In this document: one piece after another, positions 41,322-57,942 of the stretch | How the letters are laid out: each line of letters opens with the position of its first letter | Position numbering within the stretch: the first letter of the stretch is position 1 | Source: Burkholderiales bacterium | GTDB lineage: Bacteria; Pseudomonadota; Gammaproteobacteria; Burkholderiales; Casimicrobiaceae | Direction of reading: 5' to 3' | NCBI GenBank assembly: GCA_905339295.1 | Contig: CAJPFI010000050.1 | Coordinates: forward strand, 1-64,000 | Length of the DNA stretch: 64,000 nt | Translations under genes and position numbers: made by a program | The notes under the pieces: generated by a model | Told to the model about the DNA's origin: nothing | What the model saw: only the letters and a program-made list of their open reading frames with translations | Database searches by the model: none

Positions 41322-41351
41322 CGTGATGCTCCTGGCGTCGTCGGCCGCGCG

Positions 41352-41966
41352 CTAGCGCAGCATGGCCTGCGCGAATGTGGTCGTGTTGTTCGGACCGTCG
41401 ACGCGGACGGTGAGGCGGTAGAACGGCACGCGGATCAGCTCGGGCTTGGTGAGCTCCATCGCGGTGGTCGCCTCCGATTTCTTCGGCGGGGACATGTCGC
41501 AGTTCGCGGCCGTGGCCGGGCCCGCGTCGAGGCACATGCGCTCGATCACGTAGCGGATCGTGTTGCCCGCCGCGTCGTTCTCGGCGACGAACGTCGACGG
41601 ATAGTTGTCGGGCTTGAGTCCCTGCAGGTCGTAGGGCACGCCGGCCTCGTCCTCGACCTTGCCCGAGTTCTTGATCTCGAAGCGGTACGGGTAGTAGTTC
41701 TGGTCGAGCTTCACCTGGTCGAGGTCCGGGATCAGGTTCTTCTCGAACATCGCGGCGACCGCGTTCTCGACCGCCCAGGTCGACGGCGGGATCGACGCCT
41801 GGCGGAATCCCAGGTTCGCGGTCACCGACAGGCCGGTGTCGACCGAGCGCACCAGCGCGATGCCGGCGATCGACAGCGCGACCATCACGATCAGCGCGAT
41901 GAACAGCACGACGCCGGACTGCGCACGGCGGGAGCGGGCCTTCCCGGAATGGCGGCTCATGGTCAT
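41352..41966 (-). CDS. pilX: Type IV pilus minor pilin PilX
   Basis: The 204-aa protein has a short basic leader ending RRAQSG at residue 18 and a hydrophobic N-terminal helix VVLFIALIVMVALSIAG. Like other PilX proteins it lacks Glu at mature position 5. The ATG at 41966 overlaps the pilW stop (ATGA), so ATG 41966 is preferred over 41960. The C-terminal half contains the PilX-type CxxDxG region (ERMCLDAGP). It forms part of the tip complex with PilV, PilW and PilY1. Confidence 0.87.
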   Translation of the reverse strand: MTMSRHSGKARSRRAQSGVVLFIALIVMVALSIAGIALVRSVDTGLSVTANLGFRQASIPPSTWAVENAVAAMFEKNLIPDLDQVKLDQNYYPYRFEIKNSGKVEDEAGVPYDLQGLKPDNYPSTFVAENDAAGNTIRYVIERMCLDAGPATAANCDMSPPKKSEATTAMELTKPELIRVPFYRLTVRVDGPNNTTTFAQAMLR

Positions 41967-43021
41967 CGGTTCCACATCGGGTTGCGCAGGGGCACGATCG
42001 TCTCGTAGACGCGGTAGCGGTAGTTCGCGGGCAGCGTGCCCTCCAGCGGATCGGGACAGACGTAGATCGTCGCTTCCTCGGGCGTGCACTCGAACAGCGT
42101 CCAGTCGAAGGCCGGGGCGTCGCGGGCGAACTCGTCGCTGCGCACGATCAGGCCCATCCGCACCGCCTTGATCCGGCGCAACTCCGCGCCGGTGAACACC
42201 CGCACCTTGTCCGGCGCGTAGTCGCCCGTGGCCGCGGTCCACTCGTCGACCGTGCCGTTGCCGTCGGTGTCGATGCCGTATTGCAGCTTGAGGTTCGCGA
42301 TCGACGACGCGAGCGGCTGCGCCGTCGCGCCGGCGGTCACGAGGTCGGTGCTGCGCAGCACGCCGCTGACGACGTCGAAGCGCACGCGCTGCGTGCTCGT
42401 CGCCGGCCCGATGTTGATGAGGCGCATCGTGGGCAGGTACTCGTGGGTCGACCCGGCCTGCGTCAGCACCACGTTGCCGTTGGCGTCGGGGGCGGTCACG
42501 GCGGTGATCTCGCGGCGCTCGCACTCGCCGCTGCCGGACATCACCACGACCATGTCGCCCTTCTTGAAGCCGGTCGGGCTCTGCACCGTGTAGCTCGTGC
42601 CGCCCGCATCGGTCTTCGCCATGAACACCGACGGCGTCACGACCGACCTCGAGGTGCCGTAGTTGACGACGATCGAGTCGGGCGTGTCGTCGTTCGCGCC
42701 CGGCGTCACGATGACCGCGAACGGCCGGAGCGTCGTCGCGACGTTGCCGGTGTCGGTGCAGGTCGCGAGGTCGTCCTGGTTCAGCATGATGCCGGCGCCG
42801 GCGTTGCCGAGCTCGGTGCCGAGCAGGTACATCGCGATCATCCCGGTCCGCTGCGCGTCGCCCGCCGAGATCGTCTGGCGCTTGACGCCCTCCGCGACCG
42901 CGAACGTCTGGTAGATGACGAGCACCGCGATCAGGCCGATCACCACGCCCACCATCAGCTCGATGAGCGAGATGCCGCGCTGGCGCGACGCGCGGACCGG
43001 AGGGAGGGGGCGCATGCGCAT
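41963..43021 (-). CDS. pilW: Type IV pilus minor pilin PilW
   Basis: The 352-aa minor pilin has a class-III prepilin leader RQRG (G16) followed by ISLIELMVGVVIGLIAVLVIY, with Glu at mature position 5. The long globular part contains the DTDGNGTVDEW loop, which looks like a calcium-binding site. Two bases separate it from pilV and it overlaps pilX by four. PilW helps prime pilus assembly at the tip. Confidence 0.88.
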   Translation of the reverse strand: MRMRPLPPVRASRQRGISLIELMVGVVIGLIAVLVIYQTFAVAEGVKRQTISAGDAQRTGMIAMYLLGTELGNAGAGIMLNQDDLATCTDTGNVATTLRPFAVIVTPGANDDTPDSIVVNYGTSRSVVTPSVFMAKTDAGGTSYTVQSPTGFKKGDMVVVMSGSGECERREITAVTAPDANGNVVLTQAGSTHEYLPTMRLINIGPATSTQRVRFDVVSGVLRSTDLVTAGATAQPLASSIANLKLQYGIDTDGNGTVDEWTAATGDYAPDKVRVFTGAELRRIKAVRMGLIVRSDEFARDAPAFDWTLFECTPEEATIYVCPDPLEGTLPANYRYRVYETIVPLRNPMWNR

Positions 43022-43023
43022 GG

Positions 43024-43494
43024 TCAGTTGTTGAGGCCGACCATCACCGCGCCGACGTACTGGTGCGGGGTCGCCTCGCCCGGGAGCTGCCAGCGGATGG
43101 TCACGGTGACGAGGTTGCTCGTCGACGACGGACCGGCGACGACGGTGACGGTCGGCGCGAGCGCGTCGACGCCCTTCACGCCGGGCAGCCGCTCGGCCGC
43201 CTCGACCAGCGCGGTGTAGCCGCTGCCGCCGGTGCCCGCGTCGCCCTCGTACATCGCCTCGATGTCGGGCCGGTTCATCGTCCACATGCGTCCCATCGCC
43301 GCGTTCGCGATCTGGATCGCCTCGCCGCGGTACTGCAGGTCGTTGGTGTTGCGGATCGCGACGGCCTGCAGGCCGACGAGGCCCAGGATGCCGAACGCGA
43401 AGATGAGTACGCCGACGAGCGCCTCGAGCAGGAACGCGCCGGACTGGCCGCGGCGCGTCGCGCGGCGGGATCGGACGGGGGAGGACGGTCGCAT
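43024..43494 (-). CDS. pilV: Type IV pilus modification/minor pilin PilV
   Basis: The 156-aa minor pilin has leader RRGQSG then AFLLEALVGVLIFAFGILGLVGLQ. Glu5 is kept, but the residue after the cleavage glycine is Ala rather than the usual Phe. The block GLQAVAIRNTNDLQYRGEAIQIANAAM is typical of PilV. It lies 8 bp after the GspH/FimT gene and 2 bp before pilW. Confidence 0.88.
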   Translation of the reverse strand: MRPSSPVRSRRATRRGQSGAFLLEALVGVLIFAFGILGLVGLQAVAIRNTNDLQYRGEAIQIANAAMGRMWTMNRPDIEAMYEGDAGTGGSGYTALVEAAERLPGVKGVDALAPTVTVVAGPSSTSNLVTVTIRWQLPGEATPHQYVGAVMVGLNN

Positions 43495-43502
43495 GTCGGG
43501 GG

Positions 43503-44051
43503 TCAGGCCGGGCAGCCGCGCGGGTCGGTCGCGTCGAGCTTGGGATCGCAGGAGCGGATGCCGACGCCGGTCGCGGCGGCGGTGTCGATGACGACGCGAA
43601 GCTTGCGCACGCCGGTGAAGCCGGAGGTCGAGTCGACGTCGATCGTGATGCGCTCGTCCAGCGCGGCCGCGTCCTTGTCGAGCACGCGCCCGAGCCCGTC
43701 GAACATGACCGTCGTGGTGCCGACCGGCGTGACCGTCAGCTCGACCTTCGGCGAGCCTTCGCGGAAGATCGCCTGGCGCAGCACGCTGTCGTCGGCGACG
43801 AGCTCGACCGTCCAGCCCTCCGCCGGGTCGATCACGAGCCTGACCTGCTGGTTGCGCTTGATCGCCTCGCCCTGCGCGATGCGCAGGCCGTCGAGCACGA
43901 GCTCGGTCGCGGTGCGCACCTGCTGGCTCGCGATCCAGGTCGAGTACATCGGCAGCGCCATCAGCGCGAGAATCGTGAAGATCGCGATCGCGACCATCAT
44001 CTCGATCAGGCTCATGCCGGTCTGGCGCGCCCGGGCGACGGCCGTGGCCAT
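43503..44051 (-). CDS. GspH/FimT-family pseudopilin (FimU/FimT-like)
   Basis: The 182-aa pseudopilin has leader ARQTG (G12) and helix MSLIEMMVAIAIFTILALMALP, Glu at mature position 5, and a GspH domain (LVLDGLRIAQGEAIKRNQQVRLVI). The mature chain ends in a region with two cysteines (RSCDPKLDATDPRGCPA), which may be disulfide-linked. It is the second of two FimT-like genes here; by position next to pilV it is probably the FimU equivalent. Confidence 0.85.
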   Translation of the reverse strand: MATAVARARQTGMSLIEMMVAIAIFTILALMALPMYSTWIASQQVRTATELVLDGLRIAQGEAIKRNQQVRLVIDPAEGWTVELVADDSVLRQAIFREGSPKVELTVTPVGTTTVMFDGLGRVLDKDAAALDERITIDVDSTSGFTGVRKLRVVIDTAAATGVGIRSCDPKLDATDPRGCPA

Positions 44052-44053
44052 GG

Positions 44054-44512
44054 TCAGCAGCTCCCGTCCTTGCGCGTGACCCAGCAATCGGTCTTCGTCG
44101 TCCAGCCGGAGGGCAGCGCGTTGGTCTTCTTCGCGCCCGACGCGACGATCTGGTATTCGAAGCCGGTCATCCCCGCCGACCCCTTGCCCGTCGCCACCAC
44201 CGTGTAGTTGGTCGCGGACGCGTCCTTGCAGGCGATCGTGAATCCCGCGTCGCCCGTGTCGGTCGGGTTGGCGACGCCGCAGGCGCCTCCGTTGGCGTAG
44301 GTCCGGTTGTCCATGAAGTACTGCTCCATCCGGACCCGGAAGTCGGACAGCTTCGAGGTCGCGTCGATGATGCGGCCGCGCAGCACGTAGTCCCGGTACA
44401 TCGGGATCGCGACTGCCGCCAGGATCGCCGCGATCGCGACGGTGATCATGAGCTCGATCAGCGTGAAGCCGCGCGCGCGGTGGGCGCGTCGGGCAGTGCA
44501 GGCGTGGGCCAT
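44054..44512 (-). CDS. pilE: Type IV pilin PilE
   Basis: The 152-aa type IVa pilin has leader ending RARG (G15) and the classical helix FTLIELMITVAIAAILAAVAIP with Glu at +5. The C-terminal pair of cysteines (DCWVTRKDGSC) forms the D-loop disulfide. ATG 44512 is chosen because GAGG lies nine bases upstream; the ATG at 44521 has GAGG directly abutting it. It lies within the minor-pilin cluster, so it could be a minor pilin rather than the main subunit. It has its own promoter. Confidence 0.88.
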   Translation of the reverse strand: MAHACTARRAHRARGFTLIELMITVAIAAILAAVAIPMYRDYVLRGRIIDATSKLSDFRVRMEQYFMDNRTYANGGACGVANPTDTGDAGFTIACKDASATNYTVVATGKGSAGMTGFEYQIVASGAKKTNALPSGWTTKTDCWVTRKDGSC

Positions 44513-44538
44513 GGCGGTCATCCTCGTGGTTGCCACGA

Positions 44539-44567
44539 ATCCTAGGGGTCGCGGCCGGCCGCGGCAA
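44539..44567 (-). promoter_or_regulatory. Sigma70 promoter of pilE
   Basis: On the minus strand TTGCCG (44567-44562) and TAGGAT (44544-44539) are 17 bp apart. The predicted start near 44532 gives a leader of about 20 nt. Confidence 0.5.
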
Positions 44568-44678
44568 ACGGCCCCGACCAATGGCTCGCCCCGGGGAACG
44601 GACGGCGCCCGCGCATCGCGAAGCGGGTGGAGTCGGCCTGGCGTCCGCTCGAGGCGGACGGGAGCGCGGGCGGCCGGG

Positions 44679-45248
44679 TCAGGGACACCGGTCGCGGGTC
44701 CGGACCGTCCGGACCCGCCCGGTCGCCGCCAGCACGACCTCGAGCGCGTCCTGGCCCGGCCGGCAAACCCGGAACGTTCCCATCTGCAGCGCACCGGACA
44801 GGCGGCGGGGCTCCCCGAGCGGCGTGAACGAGACATAGTCCTCGACCGGGCGGTTGCCTCCGACCGTGATCGAGGCGACCGCCGGCGGGTCCCAGGCGAT
44901 GGGCGGCTCGCCGTCGAGGGGTCTGCCCTCGGAGCCGGGATCCGCGTGCACGATCCAGCCGCGGGTCCATTCGCCGTCGTCGGCGCAGGTCGAGGCGTCG
45001 GTGCTCTTGCAGAGGTTCACGCGATGCCCGCGCTTGATCGCCTCGGTGCGTGCCCGCTCGAGGGCGGTCGCGAGCGTCTGCGCCCGGTTGGCGAGCTCCT
45101 GGCGCGCGAGCCAGTGGTGCCAGGTCGGCAGCGCCAGCGCGGTCACGACCGCCAGGAGCGCCAGGGTCACGGCGACCTCGATCAGCGTCAACCCGGCCTC
45201 GCGCGCTTCGTCGCGCCGGACCGGTCCCGGGTTCGGTCCGGTTGCCAT
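44679..45248 (-). CDS. fimT: GspH/FimT-family pseudopilin (FimT)
   Basis: The 189-aa pseudopilin has leader EAREAG (G19) and helix [22 protein letters not shown]. Glu5 is kept and Leu replaces Phe at +1. The GspH domain follows ([22 protein letters not shown]), with cysteines in [10 protein letters not shown] and a terminal C. ATG 45248 gives a leader of ordinary length; the longer frame starts at 45284. A 166-bp gap with the pilE promoter follows, so it may be transcribed separately from the rest. Confidence 0.82.
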
Positions 45249-45348
45249 CCGCCGATGCTCGCGGCCGGCCCGTCCGCCCGCCATCGCCCGGACGGCCGAG
45301 CTCCGACGGCCGAAGGCGCGGGACCGCGGCCGGCGCGCACGCTTGCCC

Positions 45349-45376
45349 TTGACGGCAATTGATTTAGTTCTAAACT
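45349..45376 (+). promoter_or_regulatory. Promoter with MarR-like operator for the aryl-CoA catabolic cluster
   Basis: TTGACG (45349-45354) and TAAACT (45371-45376) are 16 bp apart. The palindrome TTTAG-TT-CTAAA (45363-45374) overlaps the spacer and the -10 box. It lies in an AT-rich island within very GC-rich DNA. A repressor bound there would block polymerase; the MarR protein encoded at 48692 is the obvious candidate. Confidence 0.55.
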
Positions 45377-45480: not shown

Positions 45481-47913
45481 ATGCCCGCACCACGGCGGAT
45501 CCTGTGCATCGGCGGCGGCCCCTCCGGGCTCTACTTCGCGATGCTGGCGAAGAAGGCCGATCCGTCGCGCGTCGTCCGCGTGGTCGAGCGCAACCGTCCC
45601 TACGACACGTTCGGCTGGGGCGTGGTGTTCTCGGACCAGACGCTCGGCAACCTCGAGGCGGCCGACGCCGAGACGGCGCACGAGATCGCCGGCGCGTTCA
45701 ACCACTGGGACGACGTCGAGGTGAACTTCCGCGGCCGCACGATCACCTCGGGCGGACACGGGTTCTGCGGGATCGGCCGCAAGCGGCTGCTCAACATCCT
45801 GCAGAAGCGCTGCGAGGACCTGGGCGTCGAGCTCGTGTTCGAGCGGCAGGTGACCGACGACGAAGCCGAGGCCCGGGCGTTTCGCGCCGATCTCGTGATC
45901 GCGTCGGACGGGCTCAACAGCCGCGTCCGCGAGAAGTACGCCGATGCGTTCCGGCCGGACATCGACGTCCGCCGCTGCCGCTTCGTCTGGCTGGGCACGA
46001 AGCGGCGCTTCGACGCGTTCACGTTCGCGTTCGTCGAGACGCCGCACGGCTGGTTCCAGGCGCACGCCTACCAGTTCGACGGCGACACCTCGACGTTCAT
46101 CGTCGAGACGCCGGAGGAGACGTGGAAGGCCGCGGGGCTGGAGGCGATGAGCCAGGAGGAGGGCATCGCCTTCTGCGAGCGGATGTTCGCGCCGTGGCTC
46201 GACGGTCACCCGCTCCTGTCCAACGCCGCGCACCTGCGCGGGTCGGCGATCTGGATCCGCTTCCCGCGCGTCGTCTGCGGGCGCTGGGTGACCTGGCGGG
46301 AGGAGGACAGCCCTGAGACCGTGCCGCGGGACGCCCTCCGCGGAGACGGGGAAGCTCCGGGTCGCGCTTCGATCGGCGGGCGCGCCGGCAGGCGCTGGCC
46401 GGTCGTGCTGATGGGCGACGCCGCGCACACCGCGCATTTCTCGATTGGCTCGGGGACCAAGCTCGCGTTCGAGGACGCGATCGCGCTCGACCGCGCGATC
46501 CGCGGCGCGCCGGATCTCGCGTCGGCGCTCGAGACCTACCAGGCGGAGCGCAGCGTCGAGGTGCTGAAGATCCAGAACGCCGCGCGCAACTCGACCGAGT
46601 GGTTCGAGAACGTCGCCCGCTACACGGCGCTCGAGGCCGAGCAGTTCGCCTACAGCCTGCTCACCCGGAGCCAGCGCATCTCGCACGAGAACCTGCGCCT
46701 GCGCGACGCGGGCTATGTGGCGCGCGTCGAGTCGTGGTACGCGTCGCGCGCGGGCGCGGGCGACGCGCCGCGGCCGCCGATGTTCGCGCCGTTCGCGTTG
46801 CGCGGGATCGAGCTCGTCAACCGCGTCGTGGTGTCGCCGATGGCGCAATACTCGTGCGTGGACGGCATGCCCGACGACTACTACCTCGTGCACCTCGGCA
46901 GCCGCGCGCACGGCGGCGCCGGGCTCGTGTTCACCGAGATGGTGTGCGTCGCGCCCGACGCGCGCATCTCGCTGGGCTGCGCGGGGCTGTGGAACGACGC
47001 GCAGGGGCGGGCATGGAAGCGGATCGTCGACTACGTGCACGCGCGCACGCCGGCGAAGATCGCGCTGCAGCTCGGCCATGCGGGCCCCAAGGGATCGACG
47101 CAGAAGGGCTGGGAGGCCGCGGACGAGCCGATCGTCGAGGAGGACGGCAGGCGCAACTGGCCGCTGATCGCGCCCTCCGCGGTACGCTACGGCCCGTCGA
47201 ACCAGGTGCCGCGCGCGATGACGCGCGCGGACATGGACGCGGTGCGCGACGCGTTCGTCGCTGCGACGAGGCGCGGCGCGGAGGCCGGCTTCGACTGGCT
47301 CGAGCTGCACTGCGCGCACGGCTACCTGCTCTCGGCGTTCCTGTGCCCGCTGACCAACCGGCGCGACGACGGGTACGGCGGGACGCTCGCGAATCGCTGC
47401 CGCTGGCCGCTCGAGGTGTTCGGCGCGATGCGCGCCGCCTGGCCCGCGGACCGGCCGATGTCGGTGCGCATCTCCGCGCACGACTGGGCGCCGGGCGGGA
47501 ACACGCCGGACGACGCCGTGGCGATGGCGCGCATGTTCAAGGACGCCGGGGCCGACCTGATCGACGTGTCGTCCGGGCAGACGACGCGCGCCGCGAAGCC
47601 GGTCTATGGCCGCATGTACCAGACGCCGTTCGCCGATCGCGTGCGCAACGAGGCCGGCATCGCGACGATGGCGGTCGGGGCGATCTTCGAGCCCGACCAC
47701 GTCAACAGCATCCTGATGGCCGGGCGCGCCGACCTGTGCGCGCTCGCGCGCCCGCACCTCGCGGATCCCTACTGGACGCTGCACGCGGCCGCGCGGCTCG
47801 GCTACGAGGACGCGCCGTGGCCGGTGCAATACCTGACCGGCAAGGCGCAGCTCGAGCGAAATCTCGCGCGCGCCGCGGTCGAGGCCGCGAACCTGCCCGA
47901 GGCGGGCGGATGA
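45481..47913 (+). CDS. Fused flavin monooxygenase/old yellow enzyme: 2-aminobenzoyl-CoA monooxygenase/reductase or salicylyl-CoA 5-hydroxylase
   Basis: The 810-aa protein fuses two flavoenzymes. Residues 1-415 are a PHBH-type FAD monooxygenase: dinucleotide motif IGGGPSG (10-16) and second FAD motif [14 protein letters not shown] from residue 312. Residues from about 432 are an old-yellow-enzyme FMN reductase ([40 protein letters not shown]). Only aryl-CoA hydroxylases of the 2-aminobenzoyl-CoA (Azoarcus) and salicylyl-CoA types are known with this fusion. In the former, oxygenation is followed by ring reduction to 2-amino-5-oxocyclohex-1-ene-carboxyl-CoA. GGAGG five bases upstream fixes ATG 45481. 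It heads an operon with ATGA/GTGA/TGATG overlaps. Confidence 0.85.
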
Positions 47914-48695
47914 GCGGTCCGGGGCCGCTGTCGGGCAGCCACGCCGTCGTCACCGGCGGCGGGCGCGGCATCGGGCTCGCGATCGCCGGGCGCCTTGCCG
48001 CGCTCGGCGCCTCGCTGTCGCTGCTGGGTCGCGACCGGTCGACGCTCTACCATGCGGTTCAGTCGCTGCCGCGGGGCAGCCGGTGCGACGCGCACGTCTG
48101 CGACGTCGCCGACGCGGCGTCGGTCGAGCGCGCGTTCGCCGCGATCGCGACGGCGGGCCACAAGGCGTCGATCCTCGTGAACAGCGCCGGGGCCGCGAAG
48201 AGCGCGCGCTACGCGCTGACCGACGAGGCGCTCTGGCGCGAGATGCTCGACGTGAATCTGTCGGGCACCTACCGCTGCATCCGCGCCGCGCTGCCCGCGC
48301 TCCTCGAGGCCGGGGCCGGCCGCATCGTCAACGTCGCGAGCACCGCGGGCGTGATCGGCTACCCGTACGTCTCCGCGTACGTCGCGGCGAAGCACGGCGT
48401 CGTCGGGCTCACGCGCGCGCTCGCACTCGAGCTCGCGTCGACACCCGTGACCGTCAACGCGGTGTGCCCCGGCTACACCGATACCGACCTCGTGCGCGGC
48501 GCGATCACCAACATCGTGGCGCGCACGGGCCGCAGCGAGGCCGACGCGCGGAGCGCGCTCGCGGCACGCAACCCGCAGAAGCGCCTGGTGTCGCCCGACG
48601 AGGTCGCCTCCGCCGTCGCCTGGCTGTGCCTGCCCGAGTCGCGCTCGGTCACCGGCCAGGCGATCATGGTCGACGGTGGCGAGGCGGCAGGGTGA
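47910..48695 (+). CDS. Short-chain dehydrogenase/reductase
   Basis: The 261-aa SDR has cofactor motif TGGGRGIG (15-22), NSAG near residue 90 and catalytic Y157-x3-K161 (YVAAK). VDGG near the end is typical of FabG-like members. It overlaps the monooxygenase stop (ATGA) and the MarR start (GTGA). In the cluster it is placed to reduce or oxidise a ring keto/hydroxy-acyl-CoA intermediate; the exact step is inferred. Confidence 0.85.
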
Positions 48696-49219
48696 ACGGC
48701 GTGACGCTCGCACGCCTCCCCGCGCGTCAGGACCACGAGTCGCGCCTGACCGACGACCACCACGACGCGCTGCGCCTGTGGCTGCGCCTGCTGACCTGCA
48801 CGACGATGATCGAGCGCGGCATCCGGCGGCGGCTGCGCGAGCGCTACGCGATGACGCTCGCGCGCTTCGACCTGATGGCGCAGCTCGAGCGCGCGCCGTC
48901 CGGCCTGCGGATGGGCGAACTGTCGCGCCGGCTGATGGTGACGGGAGGAAACGTGACGGGGCTCGTCGCGCAGCTCGTCGACGAGCGCCTGGTCGAGCGG
49001 CGGCCGGTCGCGAACGACCGGCGCGCGCACGTCGTGCGGCTGAGCGCGCGCGGACGCGCGGCGTTCGTCGCGATGGCCGCCGAGCACGAGCGATGGATCG
49101 TCGAGCTGACCGGCGGGCTTCCCGCCGCCGAACGCGACCGCCTGCACGCGCTGCTCGGCAGGCTCAAGGCTTCGGTGCGCGCGCGGGAACCGGATCCGTA
49201 CCGGGCGGACGGCAAGTGA
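48692..49219 (+). CDS. MarR-family transcriptional regulator
   Basis: The 175-aa MarR regulator has a winged helix ([20 protein letters not shown], then [20 protein letters not shown]). The GTG start at 48692 overlaps the SDR stop and has GAGG seven bases upstream. MarR proteins in aryl-CoA clusters are usually released from DNA by the pathway's CoA thioester. The TTTAG-TT-CTAAA palindrome at 45363-45374 is a likely target. Being inside the operon it would autoregulate. Confidence 0.87.
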
Positions 49220-49247
49220 GGCGCCCCGCGGGCGCGAGGGAGGAGCG

Positions 49248-50084
49248 ATGAGCATGGACGGACACCGCCGGCCGTACGCCGGCCACCGCGCGACCCATTT
49301 CCGCTTCGAGGCGAGCGGCGACGGCAGGGTCGCGACGATCACGCTCGACCGGCCCGAGCGCAAGAACCCGCTCTCGTTCGACTCGTACGCCGAGCTGCGC
49401 GACCTGTTCCGCGGACTCGTCCATGCGAGCGACGTGAAGGCGGTCGTCGTGACGGGCGCGGGCGGCAACTTCAGCTCGGGCGGCGACGTGCACGAGATCA
49501 TCGGCCCGCTGACGCGGATGCAGGCGCCGGGGCTCCTCGAGTTCACCCGCATGACCGGCGACCTCGTGAAGGCGATGCGCCACTGTCCCCAGCCGGTCGT
49601 CGCGGCGGTCGACGGCGTCTGCGCGGGCGCGGGCGCGATGGTCGCGCTCGCCTCCGACATCCGCATCGGCACGCCGCGCGCGAAGACCGCGTTCCTTTTC
49701 GTGCGCGTCGGGCTCGCGGGCGCCGACATGGGCGCCTGCGCGCTCCTTCCGCGCATGATCGGCCAGGGGCGCGCGAGCGACCTGCTCTACAGCGGCCGCG
49801 CGATGAGCGCCGACGAAGGCGCGGCCTGGGGTTTCTTCCAGCGCGTCGTCGAACCGGAGCGCGTGCTCGCGGAGGCGCAGGCGTACGCGCGCGCGCTCGC
49901 GGACGGCCCGACGTTCGCGCACGCGATGACCAAGACGCTGCTGCACCAGGCGTGGGCGATGGACCTCGACGCCGAGATCGAGGCCGAGGCCCAGGCGCAG
50001 GCGATCTGCATGCAGACCGAGGACTTCCGGCGCGCGTACCGCGCGTTCGCCGCGAAGGGCTCCCCGACGTTCGAGGGCAACTGA
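49248..50084 (+). CDS. Crotonase-family enzyme lacking both classical catalytic glutamates
   Basis: The 278-aa crotonase-fold protein has the oxyanion-hole block [15 protein letters not shown]. Where enoyl-CoA hydratases have GGGCELA (Glu144) it reads GAGAMVA, and the Glu164 position (QPEILLG) aligns with LFVRVGL. An aspartate in [10 protein letters not shown] is retained, resembling the D-x-G region of ring-opening or ring-closing crotonases such as BadI and MenB. It is therefore unlikely to be a simple hydratase; ring hydrolysis of a beta-keto-acyl-CoA is one inference. GGGAGGAGCG precedes the ATG. Confidence 0.82.
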
Positions 50085-51277
50085 TGCGCCCGACGGCCAT
50101 CGACACCCCTTTCTTCGATGCGCCGCACCGCGAGCTCGCGTCGGCGCTCGATGCCTGGGCGGCGCGCGAATCCGCGAACCGAAGCCACGGCGCCGACGTC
50201 GACGCGACGTGCCGCGCATGGGTGCGCTCGCTCGGCGAGGCGGGATTCCTGCGGCACTGCGTCCCGGCGGCGCACGGCGGCGCCACCGCGTCGCTCGAGT
50301 CGCGCGCGCTTTGCGTCGCGCGCGAGGTGCTCGCGTACCACGACGGGCTGGCCGACTTCGCGTTCGCGATGCAGGGGCTCGGCAGCGGCGCGATCACGCT
50401 TGCCGGCACCGAAGCGCAGCGCTCTCGCTGGCTTCCCGACGTCGCGGGCGGGCGGGCGATCGCGGCGTTCGCACTCTCGGAGCCGGGCGCGGGTTCCGAC
50501 GCGGCGGCGCTGTCGACGGCCGCGCGGCGCGACGGCGCGCACTGGGTGCTGGACGGCGAGAAGACATGGATCTCCAACGGCGGGATCGCCGACGTCTACT
50601 GCGTGTTCGCCCGCACCGGCGAGGCCCCGGGGGCCAGGGGCGTCTCGGCATTCGTCGTGCCGGCCGACGCGCCGGGGCTCGCGATCGCCGAGCGCTTCGA
50701 GGTGATGGCGCCGCATCCGCTCGCGCGACTCGCGTTCGAGGCATGCCGGCTGCCCGCCGACGCGCTGCTGGGCGTGCCGGGCGAGGGGTTCAAGCTCGCG
50801 ATGCGCACCCTCGACATCTTTCGCGCGTCGGTCGCCGCCGCGGCGCTGGGATTCGCGCGGCGCGCGCTCGACGAGTCGGCGTCGCGCGCGCTCGGGCGGC
50901 GGATGTTCGGCGGCGCGCTCGCCGACCTGCAGCTCACCCAGGCGGCGCTGGGCGACCTCGCGACCGAGGTCGAGGCGGCCGCGCTGCTGACCGCTCGCGC
51001 CGCGTGGAAGCGCGACACCGGCGGGGCTGCGGCGCGCACGACGCGCGAGGCGGCGATGGCGAAGCTCGCGGCGACCGAGGCCGCCCAGCGCGCCGCCGAC
51101 CGCGCGGTGCAGCTGCACGGAGGCGAGGGTGTTCGGGTCGGCGCGCTCGTCGAGCGGATCTACCGCGAGGTGCGCGCGCTGCGCATCTACGAAGGCGCGA
51201 CCGAAGTGCAACGGCTGATCGTCGGGCGCGACGAGCTCGCCCGGCGGTCGGCACCCGGAGGAGGAGGCCCGCGATGA
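50084..51277 (+). CDS. Acyl-CoA dehydrogenase
   Basis: The 397-aa flavoprotein of the acyl-CoA dehydrogenase family has [30 protein letters not shown], and the C-terminal catalytic region [16 protein letters not shown] with its glutamate present. It overlaps the crotonase stop (TGATG) and the ligase start (ATGA). In the cluster it would oxidise a cyclic or ring-opened acyl-CoA, passing electrons to ETF; substrate inferred only from context. Confidence 0.88.
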
Positions 51278-52896
51278 CCACGACCGCGCATGTCGACACC
51301 TACGCCCGAGACCGCCTGCCGCCGCGCCGCGAGTGGCCGGAGATCGTCTTCGACCTGCCCGAGCTCGCCTACCCCGAGCGCATGAACTGCGCGTCCGAGC
51401 TCCTCGGCGGCGCCCTCGCCCGCGGGCAGGGCGACCGCATCGCGGTCCGCTCGTCCACGGGCCTGTCGTGGACCTACCGCGAGCTCGACCACCTCGCCAA
51501 CCGCATCGCGCGCGTGCTGGTCGAGGACCTCGGCGTGGTTTCCGGCAACCGGGTGCTGCTGCGCGGTCCGAACAGCCCGATGATGGCGGCGTGCTGGTTC
51601 GCGATCATCAAGGCCGGCGCGATCGCGGTCGCGACGATGCCGCTGCTCCGCGCGAAGGAGCTGACCGAGATCGTGACCAAGTCCGCGGCGTCGCACGCGC
51701 TGTGCGACGCCCGCCTCGCCGAGGAGCTCGAGCTCGCGCGTCCGGCGTGCCCGACGCTTCGGCGCGTCGCGCTGTTCGAGACGGACGCGGCCGACGGCGT
51801 CGAGCGGCGCGCGGCGATGAAGCCCTTCGCGTTCGACGACGTCGCGACCGCGGCCGAGGACGTCGCGCTGATCGCGTTCACGTCCGGCACGACCGGCAAG
51901 CCCAAGGGCACGATGCACACGCACCGCGACGTGATCGCGGCGTGCGACTGCTGGCCGAAGCACACGCTGAAGGCGACGGCGGACGACGTGTTCACCGGCA
52001 GCCCGCCGCTTGCGTTCACGTTCGGGCTGGGCGGGCTGCTGACCTTTCCGTTGCGCATCGGCGCGTCGACGCTGCTGGTCGAGCGGCCGTCGCCCGAGGC
52101 GCTGCTCGACGTCGTCGAGCGGCTCCGGCCGACCGTGCTGTTCACCGCGCCGACGTCGTATCGCGCGATGGCGCCGCAGGCGCGCGGCCGCGACCTCGCG
52201 AGCCTGCGCAAATGCGTGTCGGCGGGCGAGGCGCTGCCGGCCGCGACGCGCAGGCTCTGGAAGGACGCCACCGGCATCGACATCATCGACGGCATCGGGT
52301 CGACCGAGATGTTCCACATCTTCATCTCGCACCCCGACGACGACGTGCGGCCCGGCGCGACCGGCAAGCCGGTGCCCGGCTACCGCGCGTGCGTGCTGGA
52401 CGACGACGGCAAGCCGCTGCCGCGCGGGCAGGTGGGGAGGCTCGCCGTCAAGGGGCCCACCGGCTGCAAGTACCTCGACGACCCGCGGCAGGCGAATTAC
52501 GTCAAGGGTGGCTGGAACCTGACCGGCGACGCGTACCTGGTCGACGCCGACGGCTGGTTCGTCTACCAGGCGCGCACCGACGACATGATCGTGTCGGCCG
52601 GCTACAACATCGCCGGGCCGGAGGTCGAGGCGTCGCTGATGGCGCACGCGGCGGTCGCCGACTGCGGCGTCGTGGCCGCCCCCGACGAGGAGCGCGGCAT
52701 GATCGTCAAGGCCTACGTCGTGCTGAGGCCCGGCCATGCCCCCGACGACGCGACGACGCGAGCGCTGCAGGACCACGTCAAGGCCACGATCGCACCCTAC
52801 AAGTACCCGCGCGCGATCGCGTATGTCGCGTCGCTGCCGCGCACCGAGACCGGCAAGCTGCAGCGCTTCAAGCTGCGGCAGATGGCCGCCGCGTGA
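51274..52896 (+). CDS. Aryl-CoA ligase, 2-aminobenzoate-CoA ligase type
   Basis: The 540-aa ANL-superfamily ligase makes an acyl-AMP and then the CoA thioester. AMP motif [12 protein letters not shown] is at about residues 202-213, with [11 protein letters not shown] and the C-terminal catalytic lysine in RTETGKLQR. The N-terminus ([19 protein letters not shown]) resembles ligases annotated as 2-aminobenzoate-CoA ligase in Burkholderiales and Azoarcus. GGAGGAGGAGG precedes the ATG, which overlaps the upstream stop. It supplies the CoA ester for the fused monooxygenase. Confidence 0.85.
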
Positions 52897-52921
52897 ACCG
52901 CGCCGCGCAGGGAGCTCCGCG

Positions 52922-53335
52922 ATGAGGAAGCTGCAGCCGCCGGGCTGGGCGGAGCCGAAGGGCTACGCGAACGGCGTCGCCGCGACCGGGATGTTCGTCG
53001 CGATCGGCGGACAGATCGGCTGGAACGCCGCGCAGTCGTTCGAAAGCGACGACTTCGTCGCGCAGGCGCGGCAGGCGCTCGAGAACGTCGTCGCCGTGCT
53101 GGCGGAGGCGGGCGGCCGGCCGGAGCACATCGTCAGGATGACCTGGTACGTCGTCGACTGCGACGAGTACGTGGCGTCGCAGCGCGAGCTCGGCCGCGCC
53201 TACCGCGACGTCGTCGGGCGCCACTACCCGGCGATGACCGCGGTCGAGGTGAGCCGGCTGGTCGAGCCCCGCGCGAAGGTCGAGATCGAGGCGACGGCGA
53301 TCGTCCCGGACCATGCCGCAGGGGCGTCGGGCTGA
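52922..53335 (+). CDS. RidA-family enamine/imine deaminase
   Basis: The 137-aa RidA-fold protein hydrolyses reactive enamines/imines to ketones and ammonia. Arg112 (VSRLVEP) matches the essential Arg of E. coli RidA, and the KVEIEATAIV strand is typical. GGGAG precedes ATG 52922. Its position supports removal of the amino group from an enamine intermediate such as 2-amino-5-oxocyclohexene-carboxyl-CoA. The last three codons and the TGA lie inside a palindromic repeat unit (53326-53343). Confidence 0.87.
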   Translation: MRKLQPPGWAEPKGYANGVAATGMFVAIGGQIGWNAAQSFESDDFVAQARQALENVVAVLAEAGGRPEHIVRMTWYVVDCDEYVASQRELGRAYRDVVGRHYPAMTAVEVSRLVEPRAKVEIEATAIVPDHAAGASG

Positions 53336-53494
53336 AGCCCGACCCACATGTCGATCGTGGGCAGGGCTTCGGCCCGACGGAATCCGTGGGTCGGGCTTCA
53401 GCCCGACGGAACCCGTGGATCGGGCTTCATCCCGACGGAATCCGTGGGTCGGGCTTCAGCCCGACGGAATCCGTGGGCCGGGCTTCAGCCCGAC
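53326..53494. repeat. Tandem array of REP-like palindromes, 29-bp period
   Basis: Five units start at 53361, 53390, 53419, 53448 and 53477, exactly 29 bp apart. Each has the 18-bp core GTCGGGCTTCAGCCCGAC (first and third units imperfect), joined by an 11-bp linker close to GGAATCCGTGG. A sixth core in opposite orientation lies at 53326-53343 and covers the ridA stop. The family recurs at 14938-15015 with a compensatory stem change. The array separates ridA from maiA. Confidence 0.9.
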
Positions 53495-53555
53495 AGAACC
53501 GCCGCGAACCGCAGCGCGCGACCGGCCGCACGGGCATTCGCAGAGCCGACGTGCG

Positions 53556-53595: not shown

Positions 53596-54237
53596 ATGAA
53601 GCTCTACGACTACTTTCGCTCGTCGGCCGCGTATCGCGTCCGGATCGCGCTGGCCCTCAAGGGCCTCGCCCCGGCGCGCGAGTTCGTCCCCCTGCGGCGC
53701 GGCGTCCAGCGCTCGGACGACTACCTGAAGCTCAATCCGCAGGGACTCGTGCCCGCGCTCCTGCTCGACGACGGGCAGGTGCTCACCCAGTCGCTCGCGA
53801 TCCTCGAGTATCTCGACGAGACGCACCCGTCGCCGGCGCTGCTGCCGCCGGGCGCGGCGGCGCGCGCGCGCGTGCGCGCGATCGCGCTCGCCATCGCGTG
53901 CGACATCCATCCGCTCGACAACCTGCGCGTGCTCGACTACCTGACCGGCACGCTCGGCGTGTCCGACCAGGCGCGCGACGGCTGGTACCGGTACTGGATC
54001 GACGTCGGCTTCGAGGCGCTCGAGCGGCAGCTGGCGTCCGATCCCGCCACCGGCCGGCATTGCCACGGCGACGCGCCCACGCTCGCCGACGTGTGCCTCG
54101 TGCCGCAGATGGCGAACGCGCGTCGCTTCCACGTCGACCTCGCGCCGTACCCGACACTCGTCCGCATCGACGCGGCGTGCAACGCCATCGTCGCGTTCGC
54201 GGACGCCGCGCCCGCCCGGCAACCCGACGCCGAGTGA
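53596..54237 (+). CDS. maiA: Zeta-class glutathione S-transferase: maleylacetoacetate/maleylpyruvate isomerase
   Basis: The 213-aa zeta-GST isomerises a cis-double bond with glutathione. The active-site motif is SSAAYRVRIALALKG (about residues 9-23), and LNPQGLVPALLLDDG binds glutathione. These enzymes serve tyrosine breakdown (maleylacetoacetate) or the gentisate route (maleylpyruvate). The next gene is a fumarylpyruvate-type hydrolase rather than a full-length fumarylacetoacetase, which favours the gentisate role. No dioxygenase is in the window. Confidence 0.88.
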   Translation: MKLYDYFRSSAAYRVRIALALKGLAPAREFVPLRRGVQRSDDYLKLNPQGLVPALLLDDGQVLTQSLAILEYLDETHPSPALLPPGAAARARVRAIALAIACDIHPLDNLRVLDYLTGTLGVSDQARDGWYRYWIDVGFEALERQLASDPATGRHCHGDAPTLADVCLVPQMANARRFHVDLAPYPTLVRIDAACNAIVAFADAAPARQPDAE

Positions 54238-54269: not shown

Positions 54270-54977
54270 ATGACCACCGTGATCCCGATGTGGGACGCCC
54301 CGACCGTGCCGGTGGACGGCACCGGCGCGCGCTTCCCGGTGCGCCACATCTACTGCGTCGGGCGCAACTACGCCGAGCACGCGAAGGAGATGGGCGGCGA
54401 CGCGACCAAGGAGCCGCCGTTCTTCTTCACCAAGCCGGCGGACGCGATCGTCGCGGTCGGCCCGGGCGAGGTCGGGACGATGGCCTACCCGCTCGCGACG
54501 AAGAACCTGCATCACGAGGTCGAGATGGTGGTCGCGATCGGGCGCGCGGGCACCCGGGTGACGCCTGAGCAGGCGCGCGAGCTGATCTTCGGCTACGCGG
54601 TCGGCCTCGACATGACGCGGCGCGACCTGCAGCACGACATGCGCGAGAAGAAGCGGCCGTGGGACATCGGCAAGTCGTTCGCGCAGGCCGCGCCGATCGG
54701 GGCGATCCACCCGGTGGCGTCCGGCGGCCACCGCCGGCGCGGCGCGATCACGCTCGACGTCAACGGCGCGCGCCGGCAGACCGGCGACCTCGCCGACATG
54801 ATCTGGGACGTCCCGCACACGCTCGCGTTCCTGTCGCGGATGTACGAGCTCCTGCCCGGCGACCTCGTCTACAGCGGAACGCCGGCGGGCGTCGGCGCGG
54901 TCGTCGCGGGGGACCGGCTCGACGCGCGGATCGACGGGCTCTCGCCGCTCGCGATCGAGATCGTGGCCGCCCGATGA
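54270..54977 (+). CDS. FAH-family hydrolase, fumarylpyruvate hydrolase-like
   Basis: The 235-aa FAH-fold protein cleaves a diketo acid with a divalent metal. The N-terminal FPVRHIYCVGRNYAEHAKEM matches NagK-type fumarylpyruvate hydrolases. Metal ligands are in the HHEVEMVVAIG block, and GYAVGLDMTRRDLQ and YSGTPAGVGAV complete the family pattern. CAGGAG precedes ATG 54270. With the isomerase upstream it would yield fumarate and pyruvate. The stop overlaps the next start. Confidence 0.85.
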   Translation: MTTVIPMWDAPTVPVDGTGARFPVRHIYCVGRNYAEHAKEMGGDATKEPPFFFTKPADAIVAVGPGEVGTMAYPLATKNLHHEVEMVVAIGRAGTRVTPEQARELIFGYAVGLDMTRRDLQHDMREKKRPWDIGKSFAQAAPIGAIHPVASGGHRRRGAITLDVNGARRQTGDLADMIWDVPHTLAFLSRMYELLPGDLVYSGTPAGVGAVVAGDRLDARIDGLSPLAIEIVAAR

Positions 54978-55831
54978 CCGGCGCCGCCCCGGAGCTCACC
55001 TCCGAGGAGGTCGAGCGCGGCTACAACAACCGCGAGGCGGTCCCCGATCACGCGCGCTGGATCGCGACGTGGGGCGAGCTCTCCCGCGCCGCGCTCGCGA
55101 GCGGGCGCGTCGTTCGCGACCTGCGCTACGGCCCGAATCCGAAGGAGACGCTCGACCTGTTCCTGCCGGCGGGCACGGTGCGCGGCACGTTCCTTTTCCT
55201 GCACGGCGGCTACTGGCGCGCGCTCGACAAGGACGTCCACGCGTTCGTCGCGCCGCCGCTGACCGCTCGCGGCATCGCGGTCGCGGTCGCGAACTACGAC
55301 CTGTGCCCGCAGGTGAGCGTGTCGACCATCGTCGACGAGTGCGCGCGCGCGGTAGCGTGGCTCGCCCGCGACGGCGGCACGCACGGCGCCGATGCGCGCC
55401 GGCTCGTCGTCGGCGGGCATTCGGTCGGCGGGCACCTGTCGGCGATGATGCTCGCGCACGACTGGCGCGCGAACGGCTTCGCGTCCTGCCCGGTCGCCGG
55501 CGCGCTGTCACTGTCGGGCGTGCACGACCTGCGGCCGCTCGTGCGGTTCTCGTACAACGTCGACCTCCGCCTCGACGACGTCGAGGCGGCGAGGCTGTCG
55601 CCCGCGTTGCTCGAACCGCGGTGCGACGCGCCGCTCGCGATCGCCGTCGGCGGCGCGGAGACCGGCGAGTTCCTGCGCCAGGCCCGCCTCATGTGGGACG
55701 CCTGGCCGCGCAACCGGCCGGCGGGCATGCGCGGGCCGCTGGTCGTGCCGGGCAAGCACCACTTCGACGTGGTCGTCGAGCACGCCGACCCCGGATCCGC
55801 CGTGACGCAGGCCACGCTCGCGCTGTTCTGA
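54974..55831 (+). CDS. Alpha/beta hydrolase with HGGYW motif, kynurenine formamidase-like
   Basis: The 285-aa alpha/beta hydrolase has the oxyanion motif HGGYW at 77-81, nucleophile Ser150 in GGHSVGGHLSA, and a C-terminal histidine in GKHHFDVV. HGGxW with this layout is characteristic of eukaryote-type arylformamidases, which hydrolyse N-formylkynurenine to kynurenine. The kynurenine pathway yields anthranilate, the likely substrate of the neighbouring CoA cluster. Esterase activity on other substrates cannot be excluded. It overlaps the upstream stop (ATGA). Confidence 0.72.
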   Translation: MTGAAPELTSEEVERGYNNREAVPDHARWIATWGELSRAALASGRVVRDLRYGPNPKETLDLFLPAGTVRGTFLFLHGGYWRALDKDVHAFVAPPLTARGIAVAVANYDLCPQVSVSTIVDECARAVAWLARDGGTHGADARRLVVGGHSVGGHLSAMMLAHDWRANGFASCPVAGALSLSGVHDLRPLVRFSYNVDLRLDDVEAARLSPALLEPRCDAPLAIAVGGAETGEFLRQARLMWDAWPRNRPAGMRGPLVVPGKHHFDVVVEHADPGSAVTQATLALF

Positions 55832-56110: not shown

Positions 56111-56800
56111 GTGACGGGCGTCATGGTGATTCGACAGCGGGCGATCCAAACGGAAGACAAGGAGGAGCGCCACCAGGCGCTGCTCGACGCGGCCGAGCGG
56201 CTGCTGCTGCGCTCGCCCGAGCGCATGGCGAGCGTCGCCGAGGTGGCGGTCGAGGCCGGACTCGCGAAGGGCACCGTGTACCTGTACTTCCCGAGCAAGG
56301 AGGAGCTCCTGCTCGCGCTGCACGAACGCAACGTGCAGGGTTTCTTCCGCGCGCTTGGCGCACTCCTCGACGGCGATGGCCCGGTGACGGTCGAGAACAT
56401 CCTCGCGCTGACGCACGCGCACATGGTCGATCCGCCGCTCTTCCTGCCGCTCGCGTCGCGCTGCTTCGGGCTGATGGCGCAGTCGATCCCGGTCGAGACC
56501 GCGATCGCGTTCAAGCAGCGGATGGCGGGGCGCCTCGAGCGCGCCGGCGCGGGGCTCGAGCGCCACTTCGCGACGCTTGCGCCCGGCGCGGGCCTGGTGC
56601 TGCTGCGTCACAGCTACGCGCTGATCCTGGGGCTGTTCCAGATGGCGGGCGCGCAAGGCGTGTGTCCGGGAACCGCGACCGGCCACGAGCCGGCGATCCT
56701 TCAGTTCGGTTACCCCGACGACCTCGACCGCGCGCTCACCGCGCTGTGGCGTGGCGTCGTGGGCGAGCCGGCCGCGCGGGTGCCCAGGAGGCCGTCGTGA
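56111..56800 (+). CDS. TetR/AcrR-family regulator of the RND operon
   Basis: The 229-aa TetR-family protein has an N-terminal helix-turn-helix (SVAEVAVEAGLAKGTVYLYFPSKEELL) and a helical ligand domain. The start is GTG 56111 or ATG 56123; no strong ribosome site decides it. Its stop overlaps the GTG start of the membrane-fusion gene (GTGA). The promoter upstream carries two related palindromes, so autoregulation and repression of the efflux genes are expected. Confidence 0.87.
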   Translation: MTGVMVIRQRAIQTEDKEERHQALLDAAERLLLRSPERMASVAEVAVEAGLAKGTVYLYFPSKEELLLALHERNVQGFFRALGALLDGDGPVTVENILALTHAHMVDPPLFLPLASRCFGLMAQSIPVETAIAFKQRMAGRLERAGAGLERHFATLAPGAGLVLLRHSYALILGLFQMAGAQGVCPGTATGHEPAILQFGYPDDLDRALTALWRGVVGEPAARVPRRPS

Positions 56801-57921
56801 ATCGGCGTACCTGGTTCGCGCCGCTCGCGGCGCTCGCGCTCGCGTCCGTCCTCGCCGCGTGCTCGAAGCACGACGCCCCGCCCGAGGCCGTGAGGCCGGT
56901 CAAGCTCGCCCGCGTCGCGCTCGGACAGGCGGGCAGCGCGGCCGTGTTCGCCGGCGAGGTGAAGCCGCGCCACGAATCCGACCTGGGCTTTCGCATCGCC
57001 GGAAAGGTCGTCGCGCGGCACGTCGACGTGGGCGCGCGCGTGACGAAGGGCACGCCGCTCGCGCGCCTCGATCCGTCGGACGTCGCGCTGCAGGCGCAGG
57101 CGGCGCGGGCGGCGGCCGCCGCGGCCGAGACCGAGTACCAGTTCGCGAAGTCGGAGTTCGACCGCTACGCGAACCTGCACGACCTGAGGTTCGTCTCGGC
57201 GAGCGCGCTCGACCAGAAGCGCAACGCGATGAACGCGAACCGCGCGAAGCTCGAGCAGGCGCGCGCGCAGCTCGCCGTCGCGGGGAACCAGGCCGCGTAC
57301 GCGGCGCTCGTCGCCGACGGCGACGGCGTCGTCACCGCGGTGAGCGCCGAGGTCGGCCAGGTGGTGAGCGCGGGCCAGCCGGTCGTGCGCGTCGCGCGCG
57401 AGGAGGAGCGGGAGGTCGCGATCGCCGTGCCCGAGAACCGGCTCGACGAGCTCAGGGACGCGCGGGCGCTCGGCGTCGTGCTTTGGGCGAAGCCCGACCG
57501 GATCTATGCGGCGAAGGTGCGCGAGGTCGCGCCGGCCGTCGACGCCGCGACGCGCACGTTCGCGGTGCGCGTGTCGATCGTCGAGCCCGACGCGGAGGTG
57601 CGCTGGGGCATGACGGCGAACGTCGTGCTGCAGGGCGCGAGCGACGACGCCTCCGCGCTGGTGCCGTCGTCCGCGATCTACCACGGCGAGGACGGCAGGC
57701 CCGCCGTGTGGATCTTCGATCCGGCGCAGCGCACCGTCAGCCTCCGCGCGGTCACGCTCGGCGGCTTTCGCGAGGACGGCGCGCTCGTGTCGTCCGGCCT
57801 CGCGGAGGGCGAATGGATCGTCGCCGCCGGCGTTCACAAGCTGCGCGCCGGCCAGCAGGTGAAGCCGTGGGACGCGGGAGCCGCGCCGGCCCCTGTCGCC
57901 TCCGCCGCGCCGCGCGCCTGA
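56797..57921 (+). CDS. RND efflux membrane-fusion lipoprotein (HlyD/AcrA type)
   Basis: The 374-aa periplasmic adaptor has a lipoprotein signal with lipobox LAAC (Cys22). It has a biotinyl-lipoyl-like domain (FRIAGKVVARHVDVGARVTKG), a short coiled coil (about 95-150) and a beta-barrel domain. The GTG start at 56797 is supported by AGGAGG five bases upstream and by overlap with the tetR stop. It links the inner-membrane pump encoded next to an outer-membrane channel that is not encoded here. Confidence 0.88.
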   Translation: MNRRTWFAPLAALALASVLAACSKHDAPPEAVRPVKLARVALGQAGSAAVFAGEVKPRHESDLGFRIAGKVVARHVDVGARVTKGTPLARLDPSDVALQAQAARAAAAAAETEYQFAKSEFDRYANLHDLRFVSASALDQKRNAMNANRAKLEQARAQLAVAGNQAAYAALVADGDGVVTAVSAEVGQVVSAGQPVVRVAREEEREVAIAVPENRLDELRDARALGVVLWAKPDRIYAAKVREVAPAVDAATRTFAVRVSIVEPDAEVRWGMTANVVLQGASDDASALVPSSAIYHGEDGRPAVWIFDPAQRTVSLRAVTLGGFREDGALVSSGLAEGEWIVAAGVHKLRAGQQVKPWDAGAAPAPVASAAPRA

Positions 57922-57942
57922 CCCGCGTCCCGTCCGTCCGCC

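Follow-up and report, generated by a model that had tools for sequence, protein, structure and literature searches.

An abm-type operon predicted to degrade 2-aminobenzoate through its CoA thioester and ring reduction in a Burkholderiales bacterium

Which aromatic acid do the products of the operon at positions 45481–53335 of contig CAJPFI010000050.1 degrade, and by which chemistry? The operon lies in a 64,000-nucleotide stretch (hereinafter, the window) of a Burkholderiales bacterium of the family Casimicrobiaceae, and its first gene encodes a flavin adenine dinucleotide (FAD)-dependent monooxygenase fused to a reductase of the old yellow enzyme (OYE) type, for which 2-aminobenzoate (anthranilate) and salicylate come into question as substrates bound to coenzyme A (CoA). 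A preliminary description of the window had proposed a CoA-dependent, ring-reducing 2-aminobenzoate pathway. It is highly probable that the operon serves to degrade 2-aminobenzoate aerobically by the CoA-dependent, ring-reducing route of the abm type; it is a member of a known and widespread cluster type, the pathway of which is already known.

Operon structure and probable substrate

The operon consisted of seven tightly packed genes on the + strand:

45481..47913, +: fused FAD monooxygenase (residues ~1–430) and OYE-type flavin mononucleotide reductase (~431–810), 810 aa, 2-aminobenzoyl-CoA monooxygenase/reductase type (NF006101, 1328 bits, cut-off 1078; PF01494; PF00724)
47308–47310 and 47317–47319, +: codons of OYE His610 and His613 in the fused gene, a pair aligning with XenA
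47910..48695, +: short-chain dehydrogenase/reductase (SDR; PF13561/PF00106)
48692..49219, +: MarR-family regulator (PF12802)
49248..50084, +: crotonase-fold protein, PaaG-like (NF006107, 475 bits; Asp160 codon 49725–49727)
50084..51277, +: acyl-CoA dehydrogenase family protein (PF00441/PF02770/PF02771)
51274..52896, +: aryl-CoA ligase, probably for anthranilate (best PDB match 4wv3)
52922..53335, +: Rid-family protein with Met105 (codon 53234–53236) in place of the RidA arginine (PF01042, alignment)

Each gene had a start and a stop codon and no internal stops; neighbours overlapped by 4, 4, 1 and 4 bases or were separated by gaps of 28 and 25 bases, and the Pfam and NCBIfam profiles agreed with every protein class named, so that the set of adjoining or overlapping genes was present as first described. 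The best PDB match of the ligase was the anthranilate-CoA ligase 4wv3 (334 bits), compared with 298 bits for the best benzoate-CoA ligase, and its identity was 53% to the ligase of the Arthrobacter plasmid pAL1 and 34% and 27% to two ligases of clusters with an OYE-less monooxygenase. According to a passage in PMC3534580, the Rue61a ligase of pAL1 was active with anthranilate; this enzyme was equated with the ligase of the pAL1 locus analyzed here (L087) by position and product. Judging from these similarities, the window ligase is most likely an anthranilate-CoA ligase. The OYE domain was present in the window fusion, and in its motif ELHCAH, aligned with XenA, the active-site pair His610/His613 was intact; the marks of the salicylate type, absence of the OYE domain or loss of its first histidine, were not seen. 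In OYEs, this histidine pair serves substrate binding. The AlphaFold model of the fusion had a mean predicted local distance difference test (pLDDT) score of 76, with residues 612–614 below 50, and because of this middling quality the active-site geometry was not taken from it.

The genome itself served as a control. The monooxygenase domain was found in one additional copy, on contig C21 (L100), in an OYE-less protein of 380 residues. Its neighbors are a gentisate dioxygenase, which at 512 bits exceeds the cut-off of 442, and a ligase similar to dihydroxybenzoyl-adenylate synthase (548 bits, cut-off 724); this locus is read from its predicted genes as being of the salicylate type. Anthranilate was thus favored over salicylate by the ligase similarity, the OYE histidines, the Rid and beta-oxidation-type neighbors, the absence of any gentisate-dioxygenase match within 9 kb of the operon (the single family match of the genome lay on C21) and the OYE-less paralogue adjoining the gentisate dioxygenase. 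The same evidence supports both the ring-reducing pathway and the earlier view that a deaminase and beta-oxidation-type enzymes fit 2-aminobenzoate better.

Known clusters and related loci

The abm-type cluster of Azoarcus (Aromatoleum) evansii, reportedly the work of Schuhle et al. 2001, is said to comprise a fused FAD monooxygenase/OYE, a 2-aminobenzoate-CoA ligase, three beta-oxidation-type enzymes, a MarR regulator, a "translation inhibitor" (Rid) protein and an ABC substrate-binding protein. Compared with this gene list, the window contained the fusion and crotonase, acyl-CoA dehydrogenase, SDR, MarR and Rid in one operon, with a ligase of probably the same specificity, whereas no ABC substrate-binding protein was seen by eye among the genes called at 44.6–56 kb, and genes of a MaiA-type isomerase, an FAH protein and an alpha/beta hydrolase come after. 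A passage in PMC6221969 describes an abm-type cluster as vital for anthranilate use in an indole degrader. The salicylyl-CoA-to-gentisate clusters L088, L090, L091, L094 and L100, which we take to be of the sdg type, had a homologous FAD monooxygenase (36–39% identity to the N-terminal domain of the window fusion) and a CoA or adenylating ligase, whereas the OYE domain was absent and a gentisate-dioxygenase-like gene was in reach; FAH and isomerase genes were present in the four plasmid loci, and none of these clusters had Rid, SDR or acyl-CoA dehydrogenase matches.

The gene order of the operon was found again in Burkholderiales, Alphaproteobacteria and, in another phylum, Meiothermus, where one locus (L010) was identical in order; such a recurrence of both gene set and order, across genera and a phylum boundary, means that the operon is not a chance arrangement. 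Among contigs of GTDB genomes, the best 80 of 401 relatives were read, with neighbors scored within 9 kb, many stretches being short and SDR, MarR and dehydrogenase counted only at an identity of at least 40%. The monooxygenase was fused in 80/80. Crotonase was matched in 77 of these and acyl-CoA dehydrogenase in 74; RidA (68), ligase (52), MarR (46) and SDR (23) were less frequent. The closest relatives with a name came from metagenome-derived genomes of Betaproteobacteria, which suggests a betaproteobacterial host. A scan of viral contigs revealed no relative. Within the phylum, 398 genomes were drawn, of which 77 had the monooxygenase domain at an E-value of 1e-30, giving 88 gene places from 76 genomes outside the own genome (72 fused and 16 without OYE); as the loci are related to each other, counts by genus were also made. 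Crotonase was found within 9 kb of 58/72 fused and 0/16 OYE-less loci (38/45 and 0/5 by genus, p = 0.00037), and RidA near 49/72 and 0/16, respectively (31/45 and 0/5 by genus, p = 0.0055). An SDR gene was close by in 53/72 fused loci. Conversely, a gentisate-dioxygenase-like gene was within the same distance of 3/72 fused and 11/16 OYE-less loci, with no match in reach at the other five (L179, L183, L184, L185 and L233), while a tryptophan 2,3-dioxygenase or kynureninase-like gene was found near 13/72 fused and 0/16 OYE-less loci. It should be noted that only the own-genome sequence among the five gentisate-dioxygenase references exceeded the curated cut-off of 442, the other four scoring 226–271 bits, and that the dioxygenases adjoining fused genes scored 306–330 bits (five scanned). 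The substrate of such sub-cut-off enzymes could be gentisate or a near relative, for example, a 5-substituted anthranilate or salicylate.

In the tree of the monooxygenase domain, the OYE-less and the fused sequences were divided by a branch with a Shimodaira–Hasegawa-like approximate likelihood ratio test (SH-aLRT) support of 100, except for L088, a long branch placed among the fused sequences and not trusted; the tree was of the "quick" type, with SH-aLRT support only, built without the OYE half and with L240 left out by a motif filter. OYE-less genes adjoined gentisate-type genes on annotated plasmids of Pseudarthrobacter Sphe3, Rhizorhabdus RW1, Rhizobium AB2/73, Phaeobacter and Agrobacterium. 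In two loci, one of Rhizobium leguminosarum (L085, 12014–14728) and one of another genome of the same phylum (L180, 8221–10905), an OYE-less monooxygenase and a benzoate-CoA-ligase-like domain shared a single reading frame. Fused genes were located next to tryptophan 2,3-dioxygenase in Ruegeria, near aqdC1 (quinolone breakdown) in Rhodococcus BG43 and on the quinaldine plasmid pAL1. Quinolone breakdown leads to anthranilate, so that the upstream genes of all three named relatives point to plain anthranilate. They thereby speak against the same chemistry acting naturally on a different benzoate with an ortho substituent, for example, a substituted anthranilate; this is very unlikely, even though identity alone does not reveal ligase specificity and amounts to 53% for the nearest proven ligase. 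In four loci (L018, L022, L030 and L062), the operon had no ligase relative in the stretch read, and a second acyl-CoA dehydrogenase (27–30% to that of the window) followed RidA. According to a passage in a 2026 Massilia paper (PMC13215587), sdgC and a salicylate CoA route were assigned by automatic annotation; this label deserves a check because a different Massilia strain (L081) has a fused, anthranilate-type operon.

After a gap of 260 bases, the operon is followed by three further genes:

53596..54237, +: MaiA-type isomerase (maleylacetoacetate/maleylpyruvate; TIGR01262, 281 bits)
54270..54977, +: FAH protein, fumarylpyruvate-hydrolase-like (PF01557; in the PDB, 273 bits to the FAA hydrolase family protein 6j5y and 258 bits to 4maq, a putative fumarylpyruvate hydrolase)
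54974..55831, +: alpha/beta hydrolase, possible kynurenine formamidase (40% over 235 residues to the Ruegeria hydrolase adjoining tryptophan 2,3-dioxygenase; PDB match no. 3 is the kynurenine formamidase 4e11)

These genes belong to a group of observations that weigh against the anthranilate assignment. FAH and MaiA genes are typical of the gentisate route, NCBIfam names the window fusion salicylyl-CoA 5-hydroxylase, and the genome contains both a gentisate dioxygenase and a homogentisate dioxygenase. The two downstream genes, the NCBIfam name and the gentisate dioxygenase would suit 5-hydroxylation of salicylyl-CoA to gentisyl-CoA, cleavage by gentisate dioxygenase and a lower pathway through MaiA and the fumarylpyruvate-hydrolase-like FAH. 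By genus, the gentisate-dioxygenase contrast was weaker (3/45 fused and 2/5 OYE-less, p = 0.072), as was that of the tryptophan genes (9/45 and 0/5, p = 0.57). The pAL1 locus shared with the window the fused monooxygenase/OYE, the ligase and a Met-type RidA, whereas in it and in two other actinobacterial fused loci (L093 and L243) crotonase, acyl-CoA dehydrogenase and SDR were not matched nearby. Instead, short-cupin and thioesterase genes accompanied the Rid gene at all three actinobacterial loci, FAH was present in L087 (the pAL1 locus) and L093, and pAL1 also carried PaaX regulators, so that two downstream routes may exist. No biochemistry on this organism was met in the literature covered. 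Nevertheless, the salicylate route is very unlikely for the window operon: the gentisate dioxygenase of the genome is already accompanied by an OYE-less monooxygenase and an adenylating ligase, and a salicylate route would have no evident use for the acyl-CoA dehydrogenase, SDR or Rid protein. Together with the ligase, the intact histidine pair and the lack of a gentisate-dioxygenase hit within 9 kb, this separate paralogue led to the rejection of salicylate, which the NCBIfam name had raised, and that name is probably misleading.

MaiA and FAH might take part in the anthranilate route; the MaiA gene is the sole own-genome copy above the family cut-off in the genome that also has both dioxygenases. 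In the close relative L006, MaiA, FAH and hydrolase genes were likewise located 3' of RidA, with an extra acyl-CoA dehydrogenase gene intervening, and in L052, MaiA and the alpha/beta hydrolase were matched there; the operon block may extend past the gap into these three genes. Anthranilate may be supplied from tryptophan. A tryptophan-2,3-dioxygenase family match (370 bits, just below the cut-off of 390.7) was found on contig C28, and the window alpha/beta hydrolase could, from its relatives, be the missing formamidase; on the opposite side, the gene adjoining this dioxygenase-like gene had no more than a weak kynureninase match (56 bits, the cut-off being 246), and no NCBIfam match was found for it at an E-value of 1e-20.

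Between RidA and MaiA, a 29-base tandem repeat of 4.9 copies was located (53356–53498), most copies of which contain an inverted repeat of the form GGGCTTCAGCCC; a 17-base unit had six matches in the window with at most two mismatches, compared with 0.06 expected. A promoter and terminator scan revealed one promoter-like site upstream, at 45349 (0.2 in shuffles), and three terminator-like sites (2.5 in shuffles). On the 5' side, minor-pilin-like genes and a long PilY1-like gene were located at 36924–45284 on the − strand, and on the 3' side, TetR-like and RND-efflux-like genes at 56111–61140 on the + strand, all named by eye.

Predicted later steps, the Rid protein and the crotonase

In the proposed pathway, the ligase would form 2-aminobenzoyl-CoA, which the FAD half of the fusion would hydroxylate at C5 and the OYE half would reduce in the ring, giving 2-amino-5-oxocyclohex-1-ene-1-carbonyl-CoA, as predicted here from sequence; for Azoarcus, a passage in PMC4539516 gives ligation, 5-hydroxylation and ring reduction as published chemistry. 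The Rid-type protein would then release ammonia from the enamine by hydrolysis, giving 2,5-dioxocyclohexane-1-carbonyl-CoA, the PaaG-like crotonase would open the ring hydrolytically or shift the double bond, the acyl-CoA dehydrogenase and SDR would carry the subsequent beta-oxidation-type redox steps, and MarR would sense an aryl-CoA. Deamination as the step after ring reduction fits a passage in PMC3534580 on C7H8O4-CoA, perhaps cyclohexanedione-carboxyl-CoA, in anthranilate-grown Arthrobacter. No paper assigning enzymes to the steps after anthranilate dearomatization was found in the open-licence literature.

In RidA, an arginine normally holds the substrate carboxylate. The operon protein has Met105 at this position in the alignment, as might be expected of a dedicated enamine-CoA hydrolase, since its substrate acid would be masked as a CoA thioester. 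Passages in PMC5619798 and PMC4433059 hold Arg105 to decide deaminase activity; its replacement is a further point against the proposed route, and the "deaminase" of the preliminary description was not borne out by this residue. Methionine was nearly invariant among 124 Rid proteins near fused genes (Met in 121, Asn in 1, Leu in 1, one cut off, no Arg); of the four own-genome paralogues, the three whose residue was read had Arg, Cys and Met (L238), respectively. On the same opposing side stands a second Met-type Rid of the genome on contig C31 (stretch L246, 9413–16428 including its neighbors), which adjoins 2-oxoacid oxidoreductase genes and the benzoyl-CoA-route genes had, oah and dch (all above NCBIfam cut-offs), where no enamine is expected. 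A search of the order (250 genomes) with this protein as the query listed 32 places in other genomes, of which 20 were fetched; a fused enzyme was in reach of 16, benzoyl-CoA genes of one (L255, with Rid, oxidoreductase, oah and dch matches together) and a gentisate-dioxygenase match without a fused enzyme of another (L262), while neither a fused enzyme nor benzoyl-CoA genes were seen at L248 or at L252, which a contig end cuts short. The residue was Met in 17 and unreadable in 3. A passage in a Betaproteobacteria study predicts a Rid gene in the benzoate (BoxR) regulon (PMC6449761). No paper on a Met-type Rid protein of the anthranilate-CoA pathway was found in the open-licence literature by searches not aimed at the residue by name.

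The crotonase had Met131 and Arg153 at the two hydratase-glutamate positions (aligned by eye), which we take to be Glu144 and Glu164 in rat numbering. Neither position was Glu in any of 138 relatives, while Asp160 was kept in 137, with a gap in the remaining one. This residue aligns with PaaG Asp136 (3hrx), the residue mutated, by its title, in the solved PaaG structure 6sla. The closest solved relative was 3g64, named putative enoyl-CoA hydratase, with PaaG (epoxyphenylacetyl-CoA isomerase) among the next; PaaG is among the nearest functionally studied relatives and shares the Asp and the lack of hydratase glutamates, although its identity to the window protein is only ~35%. These residues make an isomerase or ring-opening hydrolase more likely than a hydratase. 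The usual name of the crotonase, like that of the deaminase, overstates what is known, the hydratase glutamates and the predictive arginine being absent.

The histidine–glutamine difference in the OYE half

Among the loci compared first (72 from the phylum, 80 from GTDB contigs and 6 named or own), the OYE pair was His-His in all fused loci that had no gentisate-dioxygenase match in reach (155/155) and Gln-His in those that had one (3/3; L153, L195 and L196, all of the phylum sample). Seven further fused plasmid loci behaved likewise: those with a gentisate-dioxygenase-like gene (L239, L240 and L245, in the last ~4.6 kb away on the opposite strand) had Gln, and those without (L241–L244) had His. 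Overall, Gln replaced the first OYE histidine in 6/6 fused enzymes near such a gene, while His was retained in the other 159 fused loci. The Gln types fell on two tree branches, L195/L196/L239 and L153/L245, the former also grouping with L186, which has His and lies at a contig edge, its downstream context not visible. A class search for relatives of the Gln-type L195 gave a match in 18/369 genomes, the best foreign one being 68% identical. A Gln residue need not mean that the OYE half is inactive, because, according to a passage in PMC10787880, His-to-Leu variants of AfOYE1 retained ~30% activity.

Owing to these six loci, the rule that the fusion always means anthranilate and ring reduction was dropped. 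The preliminary description had treated the fusion as shared by 2-aminobenzoyl-CoA and salicylyl-CoA enzymes; of seven annotated plasmid loci with gentisate-type genes, five were OYE-less, at odds with this claim, and two were indeed fused but had lost the first OYE histidine. The same loci suggest that a fusion might merely hydroxylate 2-aminobenzoyl-CoA, 5-hydroxyanthranilate then entering gentisate-type ring cleavage with FAH and MaiA downstream. For the window, where MaiA and FAH do come after the operon, this is extremely unlikely, as its residue is His and no such dioxygenase was matched within 9 kb.

Tentatively, one OYE residue may set the fate of 2-aminobenzoyl-CoA, with His610 leading to ring reduction, a Met-type Rid acting as CoA-thioester enamine hydrolase and a PaaG-like crotonase opening the ring, and Gln, on two branches, leading to hydroxylation only and a gentisate-type dioxygenase, perhaps supplying the missing genes of an indole/isatin–anthranilate–gentisate route. 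A passage in the indole-degradation paper (PMC6221969) terms the genes of the gentisate branch unrevealed, and from the predicted genes, a route from isatinate through 2-aminobenzoyl-CoA to its 5-hydroxy derivative is possible for the Gln-type loci. All of these (L195, 9934–12261 on the − strand; L196; L240, 3624–16010; L239; L153; L245) had a gentisate-dioxygenase-like gene and FAH nearby; L240 also had indolepyruvate-oxidoreductase, thioesterase, carbon-nitrogen hydrolase, Asp/Glu racemase and cyclase-family genes; no CoA ligase was annotated in it. The open-licence literature yielded no paper on the His/Gln difference, the searches not being aimed at those residues by name.

As a candidate for resolving the later steps of the pathway, the compact operon offers testable proteins, although its gene set is not new, fits the Azoarcus cluster as reported and has dozens of relatives; the comparative evidence narrows the steps after dearomatization to a few of these proteins. 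The labels deaminase, hydratase and salicylyl-CoA 5-hydroxylase are unsafe for them. If the His/Gln difference holds at the bench, it would provide a one-residue rule for telling ring-reducing from hydroxylating forms among database entries. For the organism itself, the genes of the operon very probably allow growth on anthranilate through CoA attachment and loss of the aromatic ring.

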